Below, in pieces: positions 1 through 62,720 of a stretch of DNA of 64,000 nt. The notes under the pieces were generated by a model. That model saw only the letters and a program-made list of their open reading frames with translations, searched no databases and was not told the origin of the DNA. Made by a program: the position numbers and the translations under genes. Positions within the stretch are counted from its first letter, which is position 1, and each line of letters starts with the position of its first letter. Origin of the DNA: Brachycybe producta (taxonomy: Eukaryota; Arthropoda; Diplopoda; Playtdesmida; Andrognathidae); the NCBI GenBank assembly GCA_036925085.1, contig JAUPFP010000010.1, positions 1,051,001-1,115,000 on the forward strand, written 5' to 3'.

Positions 1-1887
1 TTGCATAAAAATCCGAACCCTAATAATTAATTAAACTTATTTTTCATGTTAGATTTCTAAATTTTTGTACTCAGCTTAGTTTATAGATTACATTAGAGCT
101 TCTTTTTTTAGATTAGGCACCTTTTTATTTTACGGTAATTTAGCGCATCCAAGCACTTTAAGTTGGAAATATTTTTTTTTCCTCCCAAATTTGTAACACA
201 TAAGCCTAGTCAGTCAAAAGTATAAAAATGTTAAATGTCAAATGTACCATTTCTAGACTACTTTTACGTGGATTTCGTAGTTTTTATTTTTTTAAATATA
301 ATCTCCATCATCATCAAAATCATCATCATCATTCTCATAATGGGATTGGAACTTTTTGCTTGTCAATGCACTTCGTTCGGTTAATACCCTCTAATCACTA
401 AGCTTATGGATACATTAAAATAAATTCCAATATCGATTGATTGTGTCGTCAGTCAAATAATAATAACCCATATAAACTCCAGAACTAAACTAAAATATAT
501 ATATAGGCCTATAGTTATATGGCAAATAATGCCTGCGCACGAAGAAATACTTAATGTATGCTAATTGGAGCCGGAAATGTTAGATATGTGATCAATAAAA
601 TGTTCTTCTTTTCTCAAAATATCCTAAAAGTAACTCTCTCTCGCTATTTGAGACTTCTTCAAACAAGTGGATCTAATCCATCTTAAAAAAAAACATTTAA
701 GAGGCTACTAATTACTAAACTAGGCTTATATACTAATTAGACAAGAGCATAAAATTCTAGCTTTTAATTGAACTGGATTTACTGAGGGGAAGAAAAAAAA
801 GCTAAAGCAAATCAATTAAGAATTTAAGATAATTAGAAAATAAGAAAAATGGCTAAGGGTATGGATATGGTTTTCTAAATTGATGTGAACTATACCACTT
901 TAATCACAATGCATAAAATATGTTAAAGTTGTTGTACATACCGGTATTTCAATGCTTTGTGTGTACATTGTTACATTTAAAAGTTTAATCCTTTTCAAAA
1001 TCTCGATTTATAGAAAGATTACAAAGAAACATCAATTTTTTTATCATACATAGTTTTAGTAATTGAAAAGTGGTGCGCCATATGTTATAATAATACAATA
1101 TGTTCAGGGGTTTTTACATTTGAAAAGACCTTTTTTTAAAATTGTCTGTACAATATACTCACAAAATGTTGGAACATGTTTAATTAATACAATTATTATA
1201 ATGCTGGTTTTTGTATTGTTTTAGTGAACAGTGAGTGTTTCTTAATTTAATTTGGCCACGAATCGACCTTTTTTATAATCTTTTCAAACATTATGGAACT
1301 CCAATTGTACTTTTGACATAAACCGTGCATAATATACTGTACACAGAGCTAGAAAAATACAAAAAAAGTGGATATGGATAACCCCCCCCCCCCCCCCCCC
1401 CCCCCCCGGTTGTCCGTTTCTCTTTCCTTATTCCTTTTCTTTTTTCTCTTTCCCTTTGATTCACAAAAGAACATGCTATGACTTCTTAAATTAAAATTAA
1501 TATTCTTATTAAAAATTCTGTTAATTCTATGTAACTATTATATTACTGTGTACAATTATATCAGGCGTGTGCAACTTCATTAAGAGTATGGGCCGGATAG
1601 CGAATTTTAAATAAATCCGTGGGCAATACCATAGGATGTTTATTGAAACGAATATCTTTTTTTTTAAAGTTAGCTTTACGAACAAAATTAAGTTAAGCTT
1701 AAGACAGATCACATACAGGAGTAATAAAAATCACAAGTCATTTTCAGCAGAGGGTCACTGTGATTGGTTTATTTGCTCCATTGGTGAAATGGGGTGGGTT
1801 CTGAAAATAGAAATATGCTGGCGGGCCAGATTCAGTGAAATTTCGAGAAGTCTTCACCGGCCAGATAAAATCAGGGCAGAGTCCAAA
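1..1887. other. AT-rich intergenic region, no gene seen
   Basis: No ORF with convincing composition or splice structure is visible. The ORFs here are short and follow poly-A/T runs. The only conspicuous feature is a long poly-C run near 1.4 kb, listed separately. Confidence 0.6.
1382..1407. repeat. Poly-C homopolymer of about 26 bases
   Basis: An uninterrupted run of C follows an AT-rich stretch and is followed by a pyrimidine-rich tract. The exact length is unreliable in any assembly. Confidence 0.9.
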
Positions 1888-13726: not shown

Positions 13727-14315
13727 TACGCCTCCTCCTTTTTTGCAAATTTCTTTGTAATTTTTTTTTTTGTATTTGAATACTGCACATTTATCTTTTT
13801 AATTCTTTTAAACTTTTACTGTCGAAAAATTTACTTAATACAATTTGTGACATTTGCAATCTATTACGAATAAAAAATATTTTCAATACTTGAACTTGAA
13901 AGCCAATTTTATCTTTCTGTTAATTGCCATTTTACACTCATTTTCTAAAACACACCACATAAAATGTAAGATTGTGGTAATTACTCAAGTGGTAACAACA
14001 ACAGTAAATATCGATCACCACCTTAAAACATTGTTGCAACATGTGTTCAACAATAATTGTTAGTCTAGTCTAATGATTACAGTGGTTAACAACAATTTGC
14101 TTCAATTAGTTGCTAAGCACGTTTGAAATAAGTTTTGTTTACTTGGTGTTAAGTGTTACATCTAACTGCATTAATGGTCCATAGAATAACTTATACCAAT
14201 TACGACTACTTTTTTTTTCCTGTTTTCGCCATCATTAGATAAACGTTTACTAGAATCACTAATTTAGTTTGGAACGCAACAAGAAGTCCATACAAGTCCA
14301 CATCACGGTAAGAAC

Positions 14316-16931
14316 ATGGCCAATTTAAGCTTGGAGGATAAAGTAGCAGAATTAAATGCAAAAGAATGCAAGCATGGATATCTTCTACATCAGCTGTGTC
14401 CTGCACTGTCATATTTTCAGCCATATGGCTTTAAGTTCGTACTGCACGAGAAAAAGGCTTTGAAACCCCGTATCTACTCGTGGCTACAAGTTATTCAACG
14501 CAGCCTGCTCTTTGTCACTTTCATCTATACTGCACACTTTTTCTACAGATATTGGAAAGTGTCTTACAAGGCTAATAACCAGACTGGAATTTGTCATTCG
14601 ACAGTCGTCGGTGTCCTTCTCATCACCGCCACAGGTGCATTCATATCTCTGTGCAGTTATGAAAACCAAATTGCCCGTTTCATTGTCAGTGTGGCCGATC
14701 TTGCCGAAGCGCAGTTAACTCCTGAAGACAACGAGCAATTTCTGTTCAATGCTCGAAAATATGGTCAAAAACTCGCCATGATGCCACCTATTATCAGCGC
14801 AATTAAAATGATCGAGGGCTTCTACCAAGTGGCAAGCCAGGTGACCTTCGTAAACGACGTCATCCATGGAACATACAAAAACAACGCCACTGGGATACAA
14901 AATTTGGAACGGGTCATCGAAGTAGATTACGTAGACGATCCCTATCTGGTGGCAATATACGGCTCAATCCGTGTTATATTCTTTAATGGCATTTGCGAGC
15001 ATTTTACACTTTTGTTTATGGCTATGGTGGCACAATGCTGTTACATAGTCAGTTTCTCGTTCCCTGCTCAACCCTTGCAACCTGTAAGTCCTGAGATATT
15101 GGACGATGACGAAGACGAAGATGTATTCAAACCTAAAATTTACCCTGATGAAACACAAATATCTCTGGCTAAAAGTACGGACAAGATGCTTATTTTTCAA
15201 AAACAACACAACAACATCACGTTTCTCATCAAGAGTGGTGACAACATCTTTTCTCCAATGTTCTTTATTTGGATGATCTTCTTGATGACTGGGATCTGTT
15301 TTTCCGTGCGAGGTCTCAAAAATAACCTCACTGAAGCTAGAAACGTGCCCGTCCTTTTCTTAATCATTCTCCATTTTTGTCTCTACTTGGCCCTCATTTC
15401 TGTCGCTGGTAACTTAAATAGCCAAGTAAAGTATCAACAATTTTTTTTCGCAAAATTTAAGAGACCAACAATATATATTTTTTTTCTAACATTAAATATT
15501 TAAAATAAGGTGCAAATTTCCATGTCTACTTTCCCTGGAAGTATGGATGCCGAACTTGGCGCAGCAATGTATTTAAAACAGACCCAAGCCGTAAGTAAAC
15601 AAATACATTTATTATTAAACTAACTGAAATCCATTTCATCTAGAGCCGGATTCAGAGGCGTAGCTTGGGGCCCACAGACACAACAAATGCGGGGGGGGGA
15701 GGAGGAAGGTTTGGGACGCAATGTTAAAAGAGTATTAATTAATATTCTCTAAGGCAACCAGTAAAAAAGTTACTTTTAGTAATAAAAAATAACTATGTTT
15801 GAGTCTTTATAAGGCTATGCTAGATGCTGTTTTCACCTTTGAATTCTAACGTCTAACCAGGTTCTTTAACTGAAAACGCAATTTTTTGTTTACTTCAGAA
15901 TTTCTATTTAAAAAAAATGTGGGGGGCGCACTGAATATTTTTGCTCCCGGGCGCCAAAAAAACCTAGCTACGCCACTGGCCGGATTTAAATTTATGGGCC
16001 CCCAAACAACTGCAATTGTGTAGAAAGGTTCATGGCGACCGCTCCCTTTGCCCCCTCCCCCCCTTTTCCTCCTAAACCGCGTGAAATATTTTATAAAAAG
16101 TAAATTGCTCCCTAGAAATGAATGAAATTTTAAACGAAACTAGACAACATATATACAAGTACGACCCTAAAAGGAAATTTCCGTGTACCTTCCAGTTTTT
16201 AAACGCACAATTAAAAAACAGGTTGTTATAATTAGGTGAAAACTTCAGTTGGCTCCGCCCTTGTTATGACGACTGGCAACTGTAGTTTTCACCTATTTCT
16301 AACTACCTGTATTAAAAACCAAGCACCTCCACTTCCCATACACTTAAGATGAAAATATCAAAATAAAGAAACTTTTTAAAATCTGTACAGCTCTCTCTGT
16401 ACAAATGAATATAATTTTAAACTAACCTAGAAAATACATCTACAACCATAGCGCTAAAAGGAAATTCCTTTGTACATTCTAGTTTTTTTTAAATAGAAAA
16501 TTAAAAACCGAGCACTTCAACTCACCATGCACTTTTACAAATTAAGATTGAAATAGAAATATTTTCAAAAACAACTGTGGTGAAATAAATAAGATTTTAA
16601 ACAATACTAGAAAAATATATCCGTAAACATAACTTAGAGCGTATGAAGCTGCAATTTTGTTGGAGGTCAAGCCCTGATTTCACCTTTTCATCTATTTTCA
16701 AGGCCGTCGAATCGACTGTTCTTTACATCAACAACTTTTTCAGCCAACCTATAGGAATAACCGTATGGGGATTTTTTATAATTGAACCTGATCTTGCATT
16801 CAGTGTAAGCAAATAGCTCAATATGTGTTTTTTTCTAATAATTAACGGTTATCAATAATTTTCTTTTTATTGATATTTAGTTATTGGGAACCGTTTTCTC
16901 ATACTCGGTCGTCATGTACTGTCTCAAATAA
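14316..16931 (+). CDS. Gustatory-receptor-like (GRL) seven-transmembrane protein
   Basis: Exons 14316-15425, 15510-15590, 16703-16804 and 16881-16931 encode 447 residues, typical for the insect Gr/Or superfamily. Hydrophobic segments lie near residues 57-77, 94-113, 151-172, 212-246, 311-331, 344-364 and 415-445. An acidic insert at 261-270 sits in the loop before segment 5. The C-terminal segment reads GFFIIEPDLAFS then LLGTVFSYSVVMYCLK, matching the layout of the Gr seventh helix, although the insect-type TYhhhhhQF signature is reduced to FSYSVVMY. All three introns are phase 0 and lie near the C-terminus, a hallmark described for Gr/GRL genes. Family members are ligand-gated cation channels with the N-terminus inside. 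The ligand and tissue cannot be inferred. Family assignment rests on topology, tail and introns rather than high identity. Confidence 0.8.
15653..15978. mobile_element. Non-autonomous hAT element with 8-bp target duplication
   Basis: It begins CAGAGGCGTAGCTTGGGG and ends CCTAGCTACGCCACTG, so the ends are inverted repeats. It is flanked on both sides by GCCGGATT, an exact 8-bp duplication typical of hAT insertion. It lies in GRL intron 2 and contains a poly-G tract. The flanking AGAGCCGGATTTAAAT resembles another hAT-type terminus, so it appears nested. Confidence 0.88.
16220..16311. mobile_element. Short R2-like palindromic MITE
   Basis: About 92 bp in GRL intron 2. The core GGCTCCGCCC and TTATGACGACTGGCAACT is shared with the R2 elements at 27185, 38272 and 49416, but the ends differ (AATTAGGTGAAAACTTC and its inverse). 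It is an internally deleted or subfamily copy. Confidence 0.65.
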
Positions 16932-42132: not shown

Positions 42133-43588
42133 CTAATCCAAAATTGCAATATCCGAACACCCTCTAAATGTTTCTTGAGGACCACAACCCATTTGGCCAG
42201 TACCATCTGGACATACTCCCCAGTTAGAAGCTAAAATATAGAAACAAACAATTAGAGTAGATAAAAACACTAACGTCCATATTCTAAAAACATTACTTAA
42301 GCCAAAGTGAAACTTAAAACGACGCTAAACCATAAAACTCTCCATAGACTAACTAAAGTTTTGTCGTGCGTCATTGGTTTAACCTCAACTTTATTTTAAG
42401 CAACATTTTTGAATACAAGGGGGTAATGGCAATTTTCTAAAACGTTACTCAAGACACAGTAAACTTTAAACAAAGTAGTAAATCTCCACACCCTCACTAT
42501 AGAAAATGTTGGCAAAAGCCACGTTTTAAGTTTTGCTTAATTTATGTGATAAATTTAACAATAGAAAACAACTAACCAGTGTTCCAATGCCATTGTAAGA
42601 CACATCGCGAACATGACAAATCTTTAGGTAACTTGACTTTTATGTTGAGGGTACAGGCGGAAGCGGTAGATGCTGGAATGTGGTAACGGGTACCAGAACC
42701 ATCGGCCAACTCGAGAAGATGTTCATTCAAACAACTCTTTTGAAAAGAAACCAAAGTTAAATATCTGTTAAGATTGTAATTTGTACATTCACGTGTATCT
42801 ATTGGTCAGTGGTCACCTGCGGTGCTACATTCATCATGTCGCCGTTAGAACACAATCTAAATTCAAACCAACCAAAATGGTTAATCGTAAGTACAATTGT
42901 GATGTCCATTTCTTGTCCAGTGGTGAACTTTCGTCCAATGATGGTCTGGCCATATTTTCCACCATCCTCATTATTTCTAGGTGCAGGCTGTCCATATGGA
43001 TCACCACACGGACCACAGCTTCCGTTATGAAGAGTCCATTGTTCCTGCATTACACCAACAATTACAAACATTGTTTTTAAACTTTGGTTATTCTGTTTTT
43101 CAGAAATAACACAAACTGTGTTAAAAATTAAAATAGTAGCGGAATCACTTAATAGTTGTTTCGTGTCAATATCTTCCAAAATCAACTTTTTATAGATTAA
43201 AGTTTAAAAGCACTGTCTTCTTAAAGATGGGACAATATGAAACTTGCATGAAAAGTTTATTTTAAAAGATATCAATATAAAATACCCTTAAGTGACTGAA
43301 CTACCCTTCTAGTTTCAAAAACACTTTCAAATTTTGCTTAATTTTGCTCCTGAAAAACAGAATAACCAGAGTTCTAAAAAAATAAAATAATTATTGAAAA
43401 AAAAAACTTGCATAAAAGCCACCACAGTTCAGGGCATTATCGTCGTAATTAATAGGTGCATTCGGAAATCCAGAGTCTCTCCAAAGAGTAGAACGACTAG
43501 GAGGAACTAGCACATAACCGTGTCCACCGCATCGTACGACAAAAACCATCAAACTCAACAGAACAACGGCACAAGTATTCTTGAACAT
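42133..43588 (-). CDS. AA15 lytic polysaccharide monooxygenase, copy B
   Basis: Exons in transcript order: 43588-43412, 43044-42817, 42736-42577, 42230-42133, giving 220 residues. A signal peptide of about 22 residues precedes the mature start HGYVLVPPSRSTLWR; this N-terminal His is half of the copper-binding histidine brace. The second brace His is in LTINHFGWFEFRLC (mature residue about 93). CGPCGDPYGQP, LADGSGTRYHIP and GCGPQETFRGCSDI complete the domain. AA15 enzymes oxidatively cleave chitin or cellulose outside the cell. The first intron appears to use a GC donor (TAT|GCAAGT), since the only nearby GT gives the wrong phase. Substrate specificity is not deducible. Confidence 0.9.
43078..43378. 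mobile_element. Palindromic repeat R1 in LPMO B intron 1
   Basis: It runs from TTGGTTATTCTG through TTCCAAAATCAACTTTTTAT to the inverse CTTCTAGTTTCAAAAACAC and CAGAATAACCAGAG. It is a complete foldback. Confidence 0.82.
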
Positions 43589-50678: not shown

Positions 50679-53600
50679 ATGGAAGGTTTTGAGTGCGAAG
50701 TGGATCTTTGTAATTATGGTAAAGTGGAGTCTGTACGAGACAGTTTCGATTATGCAGGCGCCGCCGCCGCCGCCGCTGCTGCTTCTCCTGTTGTTTTTAG
50801 TCGTGGTGTTGATGACGCTGCATTAAAGACAAAGGCCATTGACCATGACAACAACAACACCACAGTGGAACTGATGGAAATGGATGATGAGATGACGATT
50901 ACGACGAACGTTGAAGCAACGCTTGATGCTACACAGTGCGTTCAGGATACGCTTCGAGAGCTTTTCGTCGTAACAGGAGCCAACTCAACGGGAAACAGCC
51001 CAGAACACCAAACGGAGAATGTAGAAAAACGACTAGAAGAAGCAGTGATAGAGACTGAAAAACCTGAACAATTGGAAGCTCGAGAGGAGGAGAACACGAC
51101 AGCAGAGGCCACCGAAGAAGAGGAAGAGGAGAAGGACGAACAAATAGAGGCGAATGGGGAGATGGAGGAGGAAGGGGAGGGAGACGTTGGAGTTGAAGGA
51201 CTCGATGCATCATTTAATTTATCACAGGAAGATATTGGAGAATGGAATGTAGTGGATGAGGTGAATGAATCTATAGAAGAAGAATCAAAGGAGTTTCCAC
51301 AAGAAGAAATTGACGGAGTGTCAGAAGAAGAGGTTTCGGCCGCGAAAGAGAAAGACTATGAAGAACATGTAGAAGCTGCCAAAGAAGAAGACGATTTAGC
51401 GGCAGTCGAAGACGAAGCAACATCGGAAGTACAGAAGTTGCCACAAGAAGAAGATAAACAGACTCAAGTGTTGTCGGTTGAAGATGAGTTAGAAAACGAG
51501 ACTGATGAAATTACAGAAAGAGAAAACGAACAAGTTACGCCAGAAGACGTTTATGTTGAGGAGGAGGAAGGAGAAGATTACGTGGCTGTAGACGACGATG
51601 CAATATCGGAAACAATGGAGAGGCAAGAAGTTGAAGAATTGATCATCGAAGAGGATGAAGAGGACACTTTGGCTACAGTGGAAGAAGACGGTGAATGCCC
51701 ATCGGGAGAAACATACGATCTGACGCAGGATGTCGAAGAAGTGACGATAGAGGAGGTGGAACACCAATTCGACGAGGAAGATGAAGAAATGGAACAAGAA
51801 GTTGATATAGAAGGAGATGTAATTAGTCCAATTACGCACGAGATCGAGAAGGATTTTCAGAACGCAGAAGAAATAAACGGTGCGTCGAGAGTAGTCGACG
51901 AGGCGATGAGACGATCGAGCGACAACAACGACACTGTTCATCCGAGGGAAGAGAGCGATTCGGTTTTATCGGTCGCTTCTAATCTCGCATCTACGCAAAA
52001 CGAGACAATATCGATAAAAAACTTGTACGCAGAACAAAGTCCACCACATAGATCACAAATTGTGATTGACCAAAGTGATGAAAACTCTGCGATTGGGAGT
52101 TTTGACAAAACATCGGACGAAATTAATCTTCCGTTTATGGCTGCGGCCATTAAGCAAGAGGTTTTAGAACACGGAGTTGGTCAGTTCTCGCACACGAACG
52201 CTATGGGAATGAGAACTACTGCTGCTGCTGTTGCAGCGACAACATTGGACGCTTCGAGGAAGTTACCGATCGTGGCCAAGAAGAGAAAGAAGAAAAAGAC
52301 CGATCAAACGGGACACGAGAACGGCGTTACTCAACCAGCCACCGTCGCATGCAAGAACATCAAATTGATATTTTTAAATAAAATTCAATAGAGGATGTTT
52401 ATTATTAAAATGTTTTTTCTTTGTTTTATTCGAATTAGTGGGAAGACCTCCAATCACGATCGGCCGTTCTTATCCGTTATGCGAGAGTCATGCTCTGCCT
52501 TTTGAACGAGGCTGGAAACGAGAAATCGTTCATCGTTCGGTCGTAATGACGGGATCAAAGGCGTGGAAAAGTGTTGACGTTTATTACTTCACGCCGGCCG
52601 GACGTAAAATGGTGAACCTGTTGCTCCTTTTGAAAGCTCGAGTTTCTTCGTCTCGTAACTGAAACGCACTTTTAATTTATTAATAATTTCAGAGATCGTT
52701 AAGAGAAGTGGGCGAATATCGTATGTATCGTGTAATCGCTTCGTTTAAAAGATAGAATTGATTGTCGTTTACGTGTTTCTTTTTTTGTTGCTGTTGTTAC
52801 AGTTGAGAAAATCAACGATGCCACGTTGACGCTAGCCAACTTCTCTTTCTCACGAAAAATAATAAGCAACTCGCCTTTGGAGACATCTCGAACGGCGAAA
52901 AGACGTGGAGCACCTACTTTAGAAGATGGTTCGAAACCGGCTAAGGTGCCGTGCCCTAAGACACACGTTTTCCCGAGCAAACCGAGATCAGAAACAAAAA
53001 TCAGCGCCCAATTTGGAGTTCCAAAAGTTATTGCTCTGCCGAAAGGAACAAATATTGTAGAAAAAAGGTGGTGCAAGGAATCTTATGAAACGTTTATCGG
53101 GGTTTCCACCAAATTGAACAACTTGGAATTCTCAAGGACTTTCAAACACGATCGAAACTCACGGGGAATTTTAAAATATAAATTCAAAAATAAATGCAAG
53201 AAATCACGAAGGAAATTAAAATGTCCAAAATCGTATTTTCGCTTACATCCTTTATATTTTTGAATAATAAAAACGTTTAAAATTTTATGCTCATTTCTTT
53301 CGCCAAAAATTGTAAATTAAGTGCGGTAAACACAGTTTTAGAGAGAGATTTGTCTTTTCCAAAAACATGGTCCTCGATTCTTACAGAAAAAATGTTTACG
53401 CTCGCAGACTATTGAGAACAATAATTGAAGCTGCAATCACTTCTTAAATGTCGTGACCAGCTATTAATAAAGGTCTTTTGGTTGTAACATTCAAAGATGC
53501 GGTTTTTATTTTATGCCCTTTTGAATTATACTAATTTGCTCGACCCATGTCAAAGGTCATCGATCTAAAAAAAAAGCCGTTCTTTGGGGGGCAGGCTCTT

Positions 53601-56600
53601 AAAGCGGAAAAAGAGGAAACTTAAAAAGAAAATATTTCGCTCACAGACAGGAAAGTTAATTATGTTTTCAGAAGTTTCAGTGTATTTTCACCCTAGAAAA
53701 AGACCAAATTTACCCCATTTTAAAACATTAAAAAACACTAGTAAAATTGAAATCGATATTTGGTGGAAACTCTGCTTTAACCTCAAAATGCTTACCGTTT
53801 CAATGTCGGTCCTTTTTGTGTTTAGAAGAACCGAAGGAGAACTGACGACAGACGTGAAACGTTGTTCGTTTCACTGTCCAGGTCAACAGGGTATCATCCC
53901 TACGTTGCAGTGCACTAAGTGTCTTTGCCTGTTTCATCCACGATGCGTCGGACTCGCGGATTCTTTCACGGGACTCTTAACTTTTATCTGTAGAGTATGT
54001 TATACTTCTGATTCAACTGTTACAAACAACGTTTTTTTTTATCGCAAGTTGTTTCCTTTTTTCAGGAATGTGGTGGTTCTTATACTCCACTTAAAAATAC
54101 ATCATCGCTCGTTAGATTACTCTCACCTACGGTAACAAAAAACAGTTCAGCAAACAATAACGTTGCCGGAAACAACAGTGTTAACATTCGACCACATATG
54201 TTGACTTATCCGAATAATCCCGGTAATTCTAACCGAGTGTCGTGTAAAAATGTGACCGTTTCACCGGTTTGGAGCATTAACCCTCCGTTACAGACGACAA
54301 ACCTTCATAATACGACACAATTTCCTTGTGGTGTGACTATAGAGAAAATTCCCCCCGGGACGAAACCGGTGCCGTCGGAACTTCCGACCGCATCGATATC
54401 CGTCATACCGATGAACCGTCCTCTCATGTTTTCTCGGTTGCAGACTCCGCAGACTAGTGTCAAAAGTATAGTTAGACCAGAATTCGCTCCACGCGGTTAT
54501 CATCCTAATTACCTGTTTCCTAATCTAACGAATGCGATGATGAGGGCCATTTCCACTCAAAACAACAACAAAATAACTCCCGAACAACAATCGATGCATA
54601 CTAACTATCGGGTTGTTAGAGCTTTAAAGCCGTCTTTTCCGGCCGGCAATCTTCAAACGTATTCGAAAATAACGGAACGGACGGTGACAGTCAACGCGAG
54701 TGGAAATCAGCTCTCGTTGCCGATGTCTGCCTCGGAACACGCGTACACCAAAATAAAACCTAACAATGGTCACCCTCAGGTGTCCATCGTTCGACAGAAC
54801 AAATTACGTTCTCTCTCTGCTCCAAATCCGATAAATTGTTTTGTTAGTTCTCTGAACGGTGGTTTCACATCTCTGCTAAAGATCTTCAAGTATCTGAGTC
54901 TACCGGACCTTCTACAAGCGTCGCAGGTGTGCTGCACGTGGAGAGACGTGGCTAGACATTGTTCGGTGGTAAGGGGCACTTTTAATAAAAGATGATTTTC
55001 AAACAGCCGAGAATCGAACGCCGGTTATTCTATCTTTTAGGATTAAAAGTAAAGATAAACTCGAAAGTGTTTTTAGAAACTAGAAGGATAACTCAATCCC
55101 TTAAGGGTAATTTAAATGCTTGACATCTTTCAAAATAAGCTTTTTATGTCATTTGGAAAACGACCTAACAATAGTTTTCAATTTTTGTATCTTAGGCCTA
55201 CTTTGAAACATGTCAACATGAAAAAATACCCATAAGTGATTGAACTACCGTTCTAGTTTTTAAAACACATTTTATTCTCTTATCATTTTGCGCTACTGAA
55301 AAGACACAATAATGAAAGCGTTCGAAAATCAGCCGTTCATATGTCCCCATTAAAACGTGTTTCCTTATTCAGTGGGAAACTGTGGTTCTGAAAAACGTAA
55401 GGATTAGAAACTGGGAGATGTTCGGAAGGTCCGCCCCCACTTTAACGATACAACAACTGGTGAGTACTCTTTCCTATCGTACGTCCCCCCCCCCCCAATA
55501 ATGACAAACCTGTCGAATGATTACGTTTGTTACGTAGGATATGCGAGGCATGCCCATCAGTGACAACAAGGACGTCACGTTTCGTGGGATACTCTTACTC
55601 TCGAGCAAGATTAAAAACCTGCAAACCCTTCATCTGTGCGAAGTTCCTGCGTACATCGTACACACGGTCACAACACAACATCCGAATCTGAAGTGTTTCA
55701 CTTCGGAATGGATCACGGAGGAAAACAAAGAGAACTCGTCAGTTCCATCTTTTTAGTCTACAATTCCGCCCTCATGTCTCTTCTAAATTGATATATCGTT
55801 ATGTTTTAGAAAAAAGAAATGCAACTTGGACTTGGTAAAGTTCGGCAAAGTGGTTAATCTGGAAACTCTCCAACTTAGAGGAATTTACGGTCTCTACTTA
55901 CTTGGCAACGGTCTCAGAGAACTCGAAACGCTGAACAGACTGACTCGACTGGTCGGACGCGTCACTCGTTTTTACGATCGTAACGTGGTTTTATTAATCT
56001 CGATCGTTGTCTTTTCGTACAGTGCATCACATCTTTACGAGGCGTTCCGCCATCCCAATACTCCTTTCTGAAGTGTCTTCCGAAACTGAAAACCTTAGAA
56101 CTCGGAGAATGTCTGGAATTCACCGAGGAGGTTTGTTATTTTGCTTTAAATTATCATTTTTCCGTCGCTATTTCGTTTTGATCTCTTATTTGTTCTGAAT
56201 TAAGGTTTACGAAACGATTGGCCAGTTGACAAATCTGACTACTCTGAGATTAGAATTCGGTGGAAATTGTGCCGAACGTGGAGTGGAAATCGTTCTCTCG
56301 TCACTGCAAAAGTACGTTTTCTCTTTAAAATAATTAAGTATCCGGATTTATTTTTGCATATTTTAAATCTCGAATTTGTCAATTTTTTGTTCCCGAATTT
56401 CTCGGCTCTTTATCACACATACTCTCTAAGCGGAAACCTTATTTTTCTTCCGTTTACAGTTTGGTTCGTCTCGAATTGATCATATTCAGGATACCTCCGA
56501 ATTTCGGCGAACTTCTCGAGAAGGTGAAAAATCTGAGGCATATGACCATCTGGCCCGACATGAAATTTAGGGTAAAGGACCACTACTACAACAACAACAA

Positions 56601-56985
56601 TCATCATCAAAGGTGTTCCTTTTTTTTTTTTTAAATCTTAAAAGGTCTCCTTTTTTTTTAGCCGGATCACAACAATTACAACACGGTTCGTGCTACGAAA
56701 TTCATCCCGTTTGTAAAGACGTTGATGTGGGGACTCGTGACGTTGTCTCTGCACGACAGCAACCACCAGATCGGTTCAGCCGGAGACTCGCAACATCGTA
56801 TAGACCATAATTCGTGTTGTATTCCGTTTCTGTCTTTCAATTTGGGCTGTACGATACCGCTTAGAACGTACATAAGTGCACACCAACTAATGAACAAATT
56901 GCGCTCGGAGTTACCGCAATCTAAAGTACAAGTGGTCATGGTTCCGAATTCGTCTTATCGAACCATCGCCTACATGCCTCGGTAA
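50679..56985 (+). CDS. MBD-PHD-F-box-LRR chromatin/ubiquitin-ligase protein
   Basis: Thirteen exons: 50679-52350, 52439-52611, 52693-52720, 52803-53067, 53826-53994, 54066-54968, 55373-55459, 55538-55737, 55810-55951, 56023-56130, 56205-56311, 56460-56571, 56662-56985; in frame, 1,429 residues. An acidic Glu/Asp region (about 110-420) and a basic KKRKKKK (534-540) precede a methyl-CpG-binding domain at about 578-643. That domain has GWKRE, SVDVYYFTPAGRKMRS and NFSFSRK; Arg585, Asp604, Tyr606 and Arg616 correspond to mCpG-contact residues of MeCP2. A C4HC3 PHD finger follows (Cys726, 730, 742, 745, His750, Cys753, 768, 771). Then come an F-box (from about 1036, FTSLLKIFKYLSLPDLLQAS) and leucine-rich repeats. 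The order parallels FBXL19 (CXXC-PHD-F-box-LRR). Inferred role: SCF substrate receptor on methylated DNA. Exon 1 needs a GC donor (GCA T|GCAAGA). Confidence 0.88.
53400..53590. repeat. Partial R5-like repeat in MBD-gene intron 4
   Basis: TTGGTTGTAACATTCAAAG, a T-rich run, TGCCCTTTTGAATTATACTAAT and GACCCATGTCAAAGGTC match the interior of R5 at 17280-17370 and 21995-22075. The Lys-rich ORF from 53584 is intronic and is not supported. Confidence 0.5.
54985..55335. mobile_element. Palindromic repeat R1 filling MBD-gene intron 6
   Basis: It begins within 20 bp of the donor at 54969 and ends about 35 bp before the acceptor at 55372, so most of the intron is this element. Arms AAGTGTTTTTAGAAACTAGAA and CGTTCTAGTTTTTAAAACAC. 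Confidence 0.8.
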
Positions 56986-60350: not shown

Positions 60351-61202
60351 AAAACAAAATAGCTCATTTAACTGAATAGCTATTTTTCCTGCCACACACA
60401 CATAATATTATATGTATTTAAATTGCCATAAGGCAGCATTTGTAAATTGCTATCATCTTTAGTAGTACTAGTAGTAGTAATAATCATAAGAAGTGACGAT
60501 ACGCACTGATCATTTGTAGCACGCAACTCTTTGTTTGTATGACTGTTGCTTAGTCTATTGATTGTGTTTTGCCGCCACCGCCGCCGCTTTATATTCTTCT
60601 TCTTATTATTATTATTATAATCACATATCCAATGCCACGATGTCATTTATAAATTCAATGAACTTCGAAAGAATCACCAGCAAAAAGAAAAAATGAAATG
60701 TTTTTTTCCATTATTAACCTTATAGTGATTTGTATTTGATTTATTTTTTTAAAAAAAAAGTGGTTATGTGGCGTTTGTTTACTCAACTTAATGTGGGTGA
60801 GTTTTTAAAAAAAGGAGTGCTAGTTAACAACAACAACAACGTTAACAAAGTACAATTAAGGAGGGGCTCAACCCCCCTCCCTCCCTCCCTCCTCTAGAAA
60901 ACACTTTTAAAAAAACTCCCTTTTCTGAAGTCGGTTTTTTTTTTCTTTTCTTATTCTACTTTCAAACTTCCTTCCTTCTTTTGTGTCGTTCGTATTAATC
61001 TCCTTTAAAATATTAATTAATTATAAAACAAAATAACAGGTGGTTTTGGTTGGTGTTTATAACTGGAATATCTTTTAAGTCGGTCTGAATCGAAGAATAT
61101 AGTTTAAAAAAGGCCCCAGAGGGCCCACACAACAACTATGCAAATGTTACCATATTGTAGTTTGTATTCAAACTCATGGAAACTCATTGTTGTCAACAGA
61201 AG

Positions 61203-62273
61203 ATGGAGGACAAAGGAAACGAAAAAACAACATCGAAAGAGACGAAAGGAGGAGTTTCAAAAGACGTCAACAATTGGACACAGCACAGATGGTCAAGAGG
61301 GCAGGAAGGACCTGAAAGAGGAGGAGGAGGCACGATGCACGGCCCACCACAGCTACCGCCACCACTTCGTTCCATTCCGAATGTGTCGTCAGTCAAAGAG
61401 GAATGTTGTTCCGTCAACATCGACCTAACATCGAAAGAGTCGAGGAACAACAGTTTGACAGTTCCTCTTCAACTACTTCGTTCAGCTTCTTCGATGAGTA
61501 ACGTTCGAGACGTCGGTAGTGGTGGTGGTGGCGGTCATCGAAGTTCCGTTTCTTCCTCGTCGTCAGTCGTCTCGGCTCCATCCTCGCCAGACTCCTCCTA
61601 CTACTCCTACTATTTCTGTGATAGTGTCTACAGCAGCAGGAGCAGCTACAGCGGTACGACAAGCCTCGATCTAAACGTTACAACGACGATATCGAACACA
61701 CTGTCCAGATCTTTGTCTCTGGACGACTCCAACTTGCACAAAATACAACTGTCGGAGACGCGTAGAACTCTCAGTTGTGAACGACTACGAGAGATTCCCA
61801 TAGAAGACGTAAAGGAACGTTTTTCGAAGGTGGTCTTAGTTTCGCCCAGTTCTTCGAGTGGACTGACAGGAGGAGGAGGAGGAGGAAGAGGAGAAGGAAG
61901 TTCCAAATCACCATTGCAAATGCCTTCGGTCGTAATCAGTGATCATAGCGGTTGTTGTACTGCAGAGGCCATTCATGCCACTGTCAGTGCGACTCGAGAC
62001 TTTTCCAGTCTAGACGAGTCTCTTTTCGATGACTCTTCTAGTTCTTATGTCTCTAATGTACGGACGTCTTCCTCGTGTTGGAGGAAACTGTCGGACTGCA
62101 GCACGTGTTCGCTCGCTTCGTCCATCTCTTTGGATGACGATGGCGATGACCAGTCCTACTCTTCTCTTCCTAATCCTCCTTGTTCTTGTTGTAGTGACCA
62201 TCATCATCAACAGTGCCTTGGACAGAACGGGCCCTTTGAGGAATGCTCTTGTTCCAGTCACCTACACCAACAG
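61203..62273 (+). CDS. Serine-rich first coding exon of an unidentified gene
   Basis: An open frame with strong codon structure from an ATG in good context (AGAAGATGG) to a clear donor CAACAG|GTAGGG at 62273, phase 0; without splicing it would stop at 62324. An alternative ATG lies in frame at 61176. The about 357 residues are low in complexity: Ser/Gly/Thr-rich tracts (GGGGGHRSSVSSSSSVVSAP), Cys/His clusters near the end (CSCCSDHHHQQC), and one more ordered stretch, RTLSCERLREIPIEDVKERF. I recognise no family. The remaining exons probably lie beyond the right edge. It is likely a cytoplasmic or nuclear disordered protein. Confidence 0.6.
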
Positions 62274-62720
62274 GTAGGGCACCGTACCCATACACAGTTA
62301 TTACAACCAGTACCAAGACGGTAAAAAAAAAAAATTCACTCAAAACAATTGAGTCAATTGTCTTTATTCATTGATTTGTCCAACAGAATTGACGTGACGT
62401 CATCATTCCATTCGGATAAATCGATAAATGGAGGAATTTGTGGTGCATTTATCTATTTTAAAATTTTTGAAAAAGCAAAACTTATGAGAAATAATTTCAA
62501 GATTTATTACAAACTAGAAGAGTAAATAAAAAATACATATTATAAAGATAATGTTCATAATGATATCTTTGAAAATAAACCTTCTTTTATGGCAGGTGGT
62601 TTTTTTTTGTTTAAATTATGTGACGTTTTTATTATTTTAAATTACCATCAAAATTTTGTTTTTTTAAAAGATATCGCAAACATTACTCATGCACTTTTTA
62701 TTTAATATATTTAAACTATA

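Follow-up and report, generated by a model that had tools for sequence, protein, structure and literature searches.

A Brachycybe producta gene probably joining a methyl-CpG-binding domain to a PHD-like finger, an F-box and leucine-rich repeats

Could a single animal protein read methylated DNA and also carry the adaptor of a ubiquitin ligase? This question is raised by a 13-exon gene located in a stretch of 64,000 nucleotides (the window) of the diplopod Brachycybe producta (assembly GCA_036925085.1, contig JAUPFP010000010.1, positions 1,051,001 to 1,115,000 of the forward strand), in which a preliminary description had noticed a methyl-CpG-binding domain (MBD), a PHD finger, an F-box and leucine-rich repeats (LRRs) encoded by one chain of exons. 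The chain was re-derived by translation and closed in frame as had been claimed, giving a protein of 1,429 amino acids (aa) with consistent phases and a stop codon only at its end (Table 1), and the analysis was extended to the genome of this species (295 Mb in 442 contigs, the window lying on contig C10). The evidence suggests, with a probability that we put at about 0.53, that the window gene encodes one chromatin protein of the nucleus, about 1,400 residues long (1,372 or 1,429, according to the splice form), that would sit at methylated DNA as a substrate receptor. In such a protein the MBD would dock on methylated CpG (mCpG), the PHD-like finger would contact a histone tail or a partner, the F-box would bind SKP1 and, with the LRRs, would most likely recruit an SCF (cullin-1) ubiquitin ligase, and the LRRs would bring in the substrate. 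The single mRNA, the nuclear location, the binding of mCpG and of SKP1 and the ubiquitylation are all predictions made from the sequence.

The gene model was compared with Pfam in pieces and at two query lengths, and the MBD reached 55.8 and 57.1 bits; its score, which the preliminary description had singled out as a check, is therefore above the cut-off of 21. Exon 2 alone had given 28.5 bits in a whole-genome Pfam scan, compared with 57.1 bits when exons 2-4 were joined. The nearest solved structures were those of MBD2 (E 2e-6), BAZ2A (E 6.7e-6), BAZ2B (E 8.7e-6) and MBD4 (E 3.2e-5), and the sequence suggests a diverged MBD that does not point clearly to any one parent. When the window MBD was aligned with those of the MBD2/3, MeCP2-like and BAZ2 genes of this genome and with the solved MBD2, MeCP2, BAZ2A and BAZ2B domains, it was found to keep the MBD2 residues R (in the second strand), D-V-Y-Y and R-S, and both contact arginines aligned with those of MBD2, which bears out the earlier claim that an MBD with both of them is present. 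The R, D, Y and R-S columns presumably correspond to the mCpG contacts of canonical MBDs. In BAZ2A, BAZ2B and the BAZ2 of this genome, E stands in place of D, and the R, the S or both are changed; such TAM-type substitutions at the mCpG-contact sites were absent from the window MBD.

Canonical MBD genes have been reported to share an intron within the MBD (PMC2917364). In this genome an intron directly follows DVYxY in the MBD2/3 and MeCP2-like genes, whereas the window gene lacks it, its MBD being interrupted instead after GRKM and within the codon for the L of EYL. The window MBD thus resembles the MBD2/3 and MBD4/MeCP2 groups in its canonical mCpG-contact positions, but these are separate genes here. 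The possibility that it forms part of an MBD2/3, MeCP2-like, BAZ2 or SETDB1 gene was rejected, each of these being a separate locus (those that we take to be MBD2/3 and SETDB1 were named by reading of exons). The MeCP2-like MBD gene was itself found twice, at G000:C61:46633-49755 and C98:202365-205487, on opposite strands and with 3122 of 3123 bases identical, reflecting either a duplication of very recent date or two haplotypes that were not collapsed.

The F-box of the preliminary description was recovered with 41.3 bits for the F-box-like family PF12937 (cut-off 24.3) and with 32.6 and 31.3 bits at the two query lengths for PF00646 (cut-off 20.5), and it aligned with that of SKP2. The PHD-like finger has all eight C4HC3 ligands, at offsets 0, 4, 16, 19, 24, 27, 42 and 45, the first pair being C-x3-C. 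Many PHD fingers that read H3K4me3 have a tryptophan two positions before the histidine and, because leucine replaces it here, H3K4me3 reading is not predicted for the window PHD. Over the C-terminal 336 aa, seven LxxLxL motifs were counted against a shuffle mean of 2.5 (at least seven in 14 of 2,000 shuffles), and the later part of the LRR region matched LRR_14 (PF23598) with an E-value of 1.4e-7. In NCBIfam only two bacterial LRR entries were hit, far below cut-off, which we took as chance LRR likeness. Exon 1 contained no Pfam domain above cut-off and encodes, at 52278-52301, a basic stretch resembling a nuclear localization signal (KKRKKKKT).

Several observations weigh against a single substrate receptor at methylated DNA, and they are considered here and in the next paragraph together with the alternative explanations. 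The PHD-like finger scored 15.0 and 20.6 bits at the two query lengths, with a low E-value but below the cut-off of 24, and the LRR matches also fell short, with 31.0 bits for LRR_14 (cut-off 40) and 21.8 bits for LRR_4 (PF12799; cut-off 27). The earlier claims of a complete C4HC3 PHD finger and of LRRs therefore hold for the eight ligands, the LRR_14 E-value and the LxxLxL excess, but not for the curated cut-offs; both modules appear statistically credible from their sequences, and the PHD finger of this genome's KDM2 likewise scores below the general PHD cut-off (23.5 versus 24 bits). As to the exon chain, 11 of the 12 introns have GT-AG borders, and the donor of intron 1 as first drawn is a poor GC site (GC-AG). 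Scored with a small splice model whose training set was 10 other introns of the gene, this site had -1.0 bits, compared with 7.3 bits for a GT in the same phase at 52180, which would end exon 1 at 52179 and shorten the protein to 1,372 aa. The segment 52180-52350 that would then be lost scores as coding (+0.37 to +0.50 per codon), the frame into the MBD is kept with either donor, and both splice forms may exist. The join between the MBD and PHD exons, the weakest element of the gene model, is a prediction from coding signal and frame. Intron 4 is the longest (758 bp), its donor at 53068 scored 2.7 bits, whereas none of the 10 training donors fell below 5.9 (range 5.9-10.6), and the pair 53068/53826 ranked only 20th among 1,059 exon-4/exon-5 pairs by splice score alone, four higher-scoring pairs being in frame and open among the 12 pairs listed; because of this weak donor and low rank, the exact exon 4/5 junction is uncertain. 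The scan admitted exon-4/exon-5 pairs only and has no bearing on one gene versus two, so that in-frame donor/acceptor pairs were dropped as evidence for the join. The ends of exons 4 and 5 are phase-compatible, for which the chance is one in three. In three scorings, with training codons taken from the other exons of the same gene, the coding signal was positive up to 53067, negative in between and positive again from 53826. In scoring 1, whose background included part of intron 4, the halves of exon 4 had +0.32 and +0.20 and exon 5 had +0.20, compared with -0.52 in the tail 53068-53263 and -0.36 upstream of exon 5; scoring 2, with a background free of intron 4, gave +0.26 for exon 4, -0.45 for the tail, -0.36 upstream of exon 5 and +0.13 for exon 5; and scoring 3, also free of intron 4 and run with two training sets, gave +0.18 to +0.32 for the halves of exon 4, -0.36 and -0.48 for the tail, -0.21 and -0.33 upstream of exon 5 and +0.31 and +0.22 for exon 5. 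The values of exons 2, 4 and 5 (0.20 to 0.32) are low within the coding windows of the gene (0.05 to 1.2, median 0.56), and +0.2 was reached by 4 and 5 of 400 random places in the window. Under a two-gene reading, an acidic MBD protein would stop within exon 4 or beyond it and a neighbouring gene downstream would encode a PHD-F-box-LRR protein; this would accommodate the long intron with its weak donor, the in-frame stop at 53263 where read-through of exon 4 closes, and the in-frame ATGs shortly upstream of exon 5. However, the scores are those of non-coding sequence in the tail (-0.36 to -0.52) as well as before exon 5 (-0.21 to -0.36), and exon 5 has no ATG, so that a PHD gene standing alone would have to begin in an unseen first exon or in the apparently non-coding sequence before exon 5. 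We consider two genes unlikely, and the sequence makes it likely that the MBD exons and the PHD-F-box-LRR exons belong to one gene.

With one probable protein carrying MBD, PHD finger, F-box and LRRs, as had been proposed, the order of its modules is that found after the CXXC domain at the KDM2 locus of this genome on contig C22, where CXXC (56.7 bits), PHD_4 (84.2 bits), F-box-like (40.4 bits) and LRR_6 (26.6 bits, passing the cut-off of 23.4) follow one another and a Jumonji helical domain lies upstream (21.9 bits, just under the cut-off of 23.4). A diverged KDM2/FBXL19 paralogue whose CXXC was replaced by an MBD would explain the common order of PHD, long linker, F-box and LRR and the faint blastp matches to KDM2, of 21.9 bits (E 0.002) for the PHD and 23.5 bits (E 0.018) for the F-box. 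Nevertheless, the window F-box/LRR region scored 2.8 bits against that of KDM2 and 39.1 bits against an FBXL14-like protein (phmmer), tblastn of this region against a 30-kb stretch of the KDM2 locus yielded nothing at E 10, and the PHD_4 family of the KDM2 finger was not among the Pfam matches of the window PHD at E 0.1. A recognisable KDM2 copy was rejected on the phmmer score and the blank tblastn, and the preliminary view of the protein as a reversed reading of the same architecture does not hold in the sense of descent. Because of the two phmmer scores, the window gene is probably an independent assembly of the KDM2/FBXL19 layout and not a KDM2/FBXL19 gene with its reader swapped; great divergence from KDM2 may be the explanation instead, although we regard a paralogue as very unlikely. 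A different doubt concerns the MBD, which scored almost equally against MBD2 (31.0 bits) and against BAZ2A and BAZ2B (29.4 and 29.0 bits), has a loop four residues longer than that of MBD2 or MeCP2, and ends in NFSFSRKI, resembling the NFSFSAKI of BAZ2. It might be TAM-like or MBD3-like, within one protein, and bind DNA or RNA regardless of methylation; the TAM domain of BAZ2A has been reported not to prefer methylated DNA, for which its non-conserved contact residues may be responsible (PMC4446428). The D-V-Y-Y and R-S residues altered in BAZ2A/B are, however, canonical in the window MBD, and a distinct BAZ2 gene (102.6 bits to BAZ2B) is present in the genome, which leaves this alternative rather doubtful, if less so than two genes. 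As for the F-box, FBXL19 was reported to purify with SKP1, with CUL1 and RBX1/2 not detected, and to recruit CDK-Mediator through a contact that requires the F-box (PMC5997449). The proposed recruitment of an SCF ligase has therefore to be stated with caution, and a methyl-CpG-targeted scaffold devoid of ligase activity, whose F-box would bring SKP1 or another complex to chromatin, has a real chance of being correct, even if we hold it only tentatively; against it, the window F-box scores well and aligns with that of SKP2, and many such F-boxes serve SCF. Equally tentative is the most specific form of our proposal, in which the substrate receptor at methylated DNA would be a counterpart of KDM2/FBXL19 of independent assembly, a methyl-CpG-directed SCF receptor that modifies or degrades chromatin proteins only at methylated DNA. 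The window protein is, in addition, known here from one genome.

Table 1. Exons and predicted domains of the window gene (window coordinates)
Feature	Residues	Position	Strand	Remarks
Exon 1		50679-52350	+	Start codon ATG at 50679; N-terminal region rich in acidic residues (29% D+E over 557 aa)
Exon 2		52439-52611	+	First part of MBD: first contact arginine and D-V-Y-Y
Exon 3		52693-52720	+	28-nt micro-exon; second contact arginine (RSLREVGEY)
Exon 4		52803-53067	+	MBD end (to 52861), then basic linker
Exon 5		53826-53994	+	Most of PHD finger
Exon 6		54066-54968	+	PHD end, long linker, most of F-box
Exons 7-9		55373-55459, 55538-55737, 55810-55951	+	From translation
Exons 10-12		56023-56130, 56205-56311, 56460-56571	+	From translation
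Exon 13		56662-56985	+	C-terminal tail, TAA stop
MBD	577-644	52495-52861	+	Exons 2-4; PF01429, 57.1 bits, E 1.4e-15
PHD-like C4HC3 finger	726-773	53863-54077	+	Exons 5-6
F-box	1039-1076	54873-55390	+	Exons 6-7; PF12937, 41.3 bits, E 1.3e-10
LRR region	about 1094-1318	55442-56559	+	Exons 7-12

A search of the genome, in which 10 candidates were scored, revealed no paralogue or retrocopy of the window gene, and scans of viral contigs and of prokaryote genome contigs for relatives gave nothing. The only other locus type retrieved from the genome consisted of frames with 28-29% identity to the window gene, which we take to be FBXL14-like. When two F-box/LRR proteins from this genome were compared with the window F-box/LRR region, the FBXL14-like product was the closer, but it is encoded in a single open frame and lacks an MBD or a PHD finger. 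Two such frames are present, at G000:C88 about 256.0-257.3 kb (437 aa) and at C1 about 1220.4-1221.6 kb (416 aa), both uninterrupted and 94% identical over 405 aa.

A receptor for methylated DNA would need methylated DNA to read, and the genome was found to encode a DNMT1 (PF00145, 54.1 bits, motifs read in the sequence), a TRDMT1-like frame, a DNMT3 (ADD_DNMT3 30.5 bits, PWWP 40.5 bits and ADD 37.7 bits, cut-off 27), a UHRF1 with SRA (66 bits, on a contig other than that of the window), PHD (25.5 bits) and a tandem tudor below cut-off (16.2 bits), and a TET-type CXXC (34.4 bits). CXXC was not among the Pfam matches over the gene model; the three CXXC places in the genome, which we read as KDM2, TET and CFP1, all lie on other contigs. 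From the DNMT1, DNMT3, UHRF1 and TET-type exons, methylated CpG is therefore probably present in this genome. An uneven depletion of CpG speaks in favour of the proposed reading: the observed/expected (o/e) ratio of CpG averaged 0.72 over 10 sampled 3-kb stretches (0.40-1.09), ranged from 0.61 to 1.41 across 2-kb pieces of the window and was 1.32 over the window gene, which itself shows no CpG loss. Inside the window, CpG loss went with a gain of TpG/CpA (rho -0.51, P 0.019, 21 pieces); across the 10 sampled stretches the relation was not significant (rho -0.30, P 0.39), a further point to be set against a receptor at methylated DNA. Along the window the CpG o/e ratio climbs: it is 0.61-0.83 over the initial 18 kb and reaches 1.19-1.41 between 46 and 60 kb.

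Elsewhere in the window, a minus-strand frame at 42799-43203 matched Pfam LPMO_10, a lytic polysaccharide mono-oxygenase family, with 23.9 bits (cut-off 23). The plus-strand frames at 14268-15503 and 61161-62324 gave no Pfam match at E 0.01; the former (411 aa) has hydrophobic stretches, which suggest that it spans the membrane several times and may be a chemoreceptor, and the latter (387 aa) is serine-rich and of low complexity. In the rest of the genome, G000:C442 is a mitochondrial contig of 15,359 bp, of animal type when translated with code 5, with what we take from the sequence to be nad4L, nad4 and nad5 on the cox1 strand and nad1 on the opposite strand; no tRNAs were found on it in an ARAGORN run under the bacterial code. 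COX1 matches outside this contig, at G000:C1:12.70 Mb and at 3.33, 4.00 and 4.03 Mb of C17, are most likely nuclear mitochondrial insertions.

Among known systems, the short forms of KDM2A/KDM2B and FBXL19 come close to the window protein, their domain order being DNA-reading domain, PHD, F-box and LRR. They carry a CXXC domain where the window protein has an MBD, their PHD finger is of a different Pfam kind, and KDM2 is a separate gene here. KDM2A/KDM2B and FBXL19 have been described as CpG-targeted chromatin proteins (PMC3685328). The gene model gave no Pfam match to SRA or RING. UHRF1 ties methylated-DNA reading to ubiquitylation and, because it already couples the two, the concept is not wholly new. 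It is described as binding (hemi)methylated DNA and having PHD and RING fingers (PMC8330077). UHRF1 thus resembles the window protein as a methylated-DNA reader with a PHD finger, but it has SRA and RING in one chain, compared with an MBD and an F-box adaptor in the window protein, and the two are separate genes here. BAZ2A/B (TIP5) and Drosophila MBD-R2 combine an MBD-type domain with a PHD finger in one protein; to our knowledge neither has an F-box or LRRs, and this genome carries BAZ2 as a gene of its own. An animal-wide survey of DNA-methylation proteins distinguishes Mbd1/2/3 from Mbd4 as two Mbd groups, and the term F-box is absent from its main text (PMC8330077). In literature titles and abstract openings, among the matches listed, no protein with this combination was described, a statement that concerns the literature and not protein databases. 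Unnamed arthropod proteins of this layout may, we suspect, already be present in public databases. As far as we have looked, then, the combination of modules is new, whereas the joining of methylated-DNA reading to ubiquitylation is not.

Little is understood of how invertebrates read DNA methylation and put it to use. A canonical-looking MBD joined to an F-box adaptor would constitute a direct link from methylated DNA to protein turnover, and the comparison with KDM2 suggests that the layout of CpG reader, PHD, F-box and LRR has arisen more than once. If the methyl-CpG-directed SCF receptor is real, this animal lineage would have an output of DNA methylation besides the MBD2-NuRD and UHRF1 routes.

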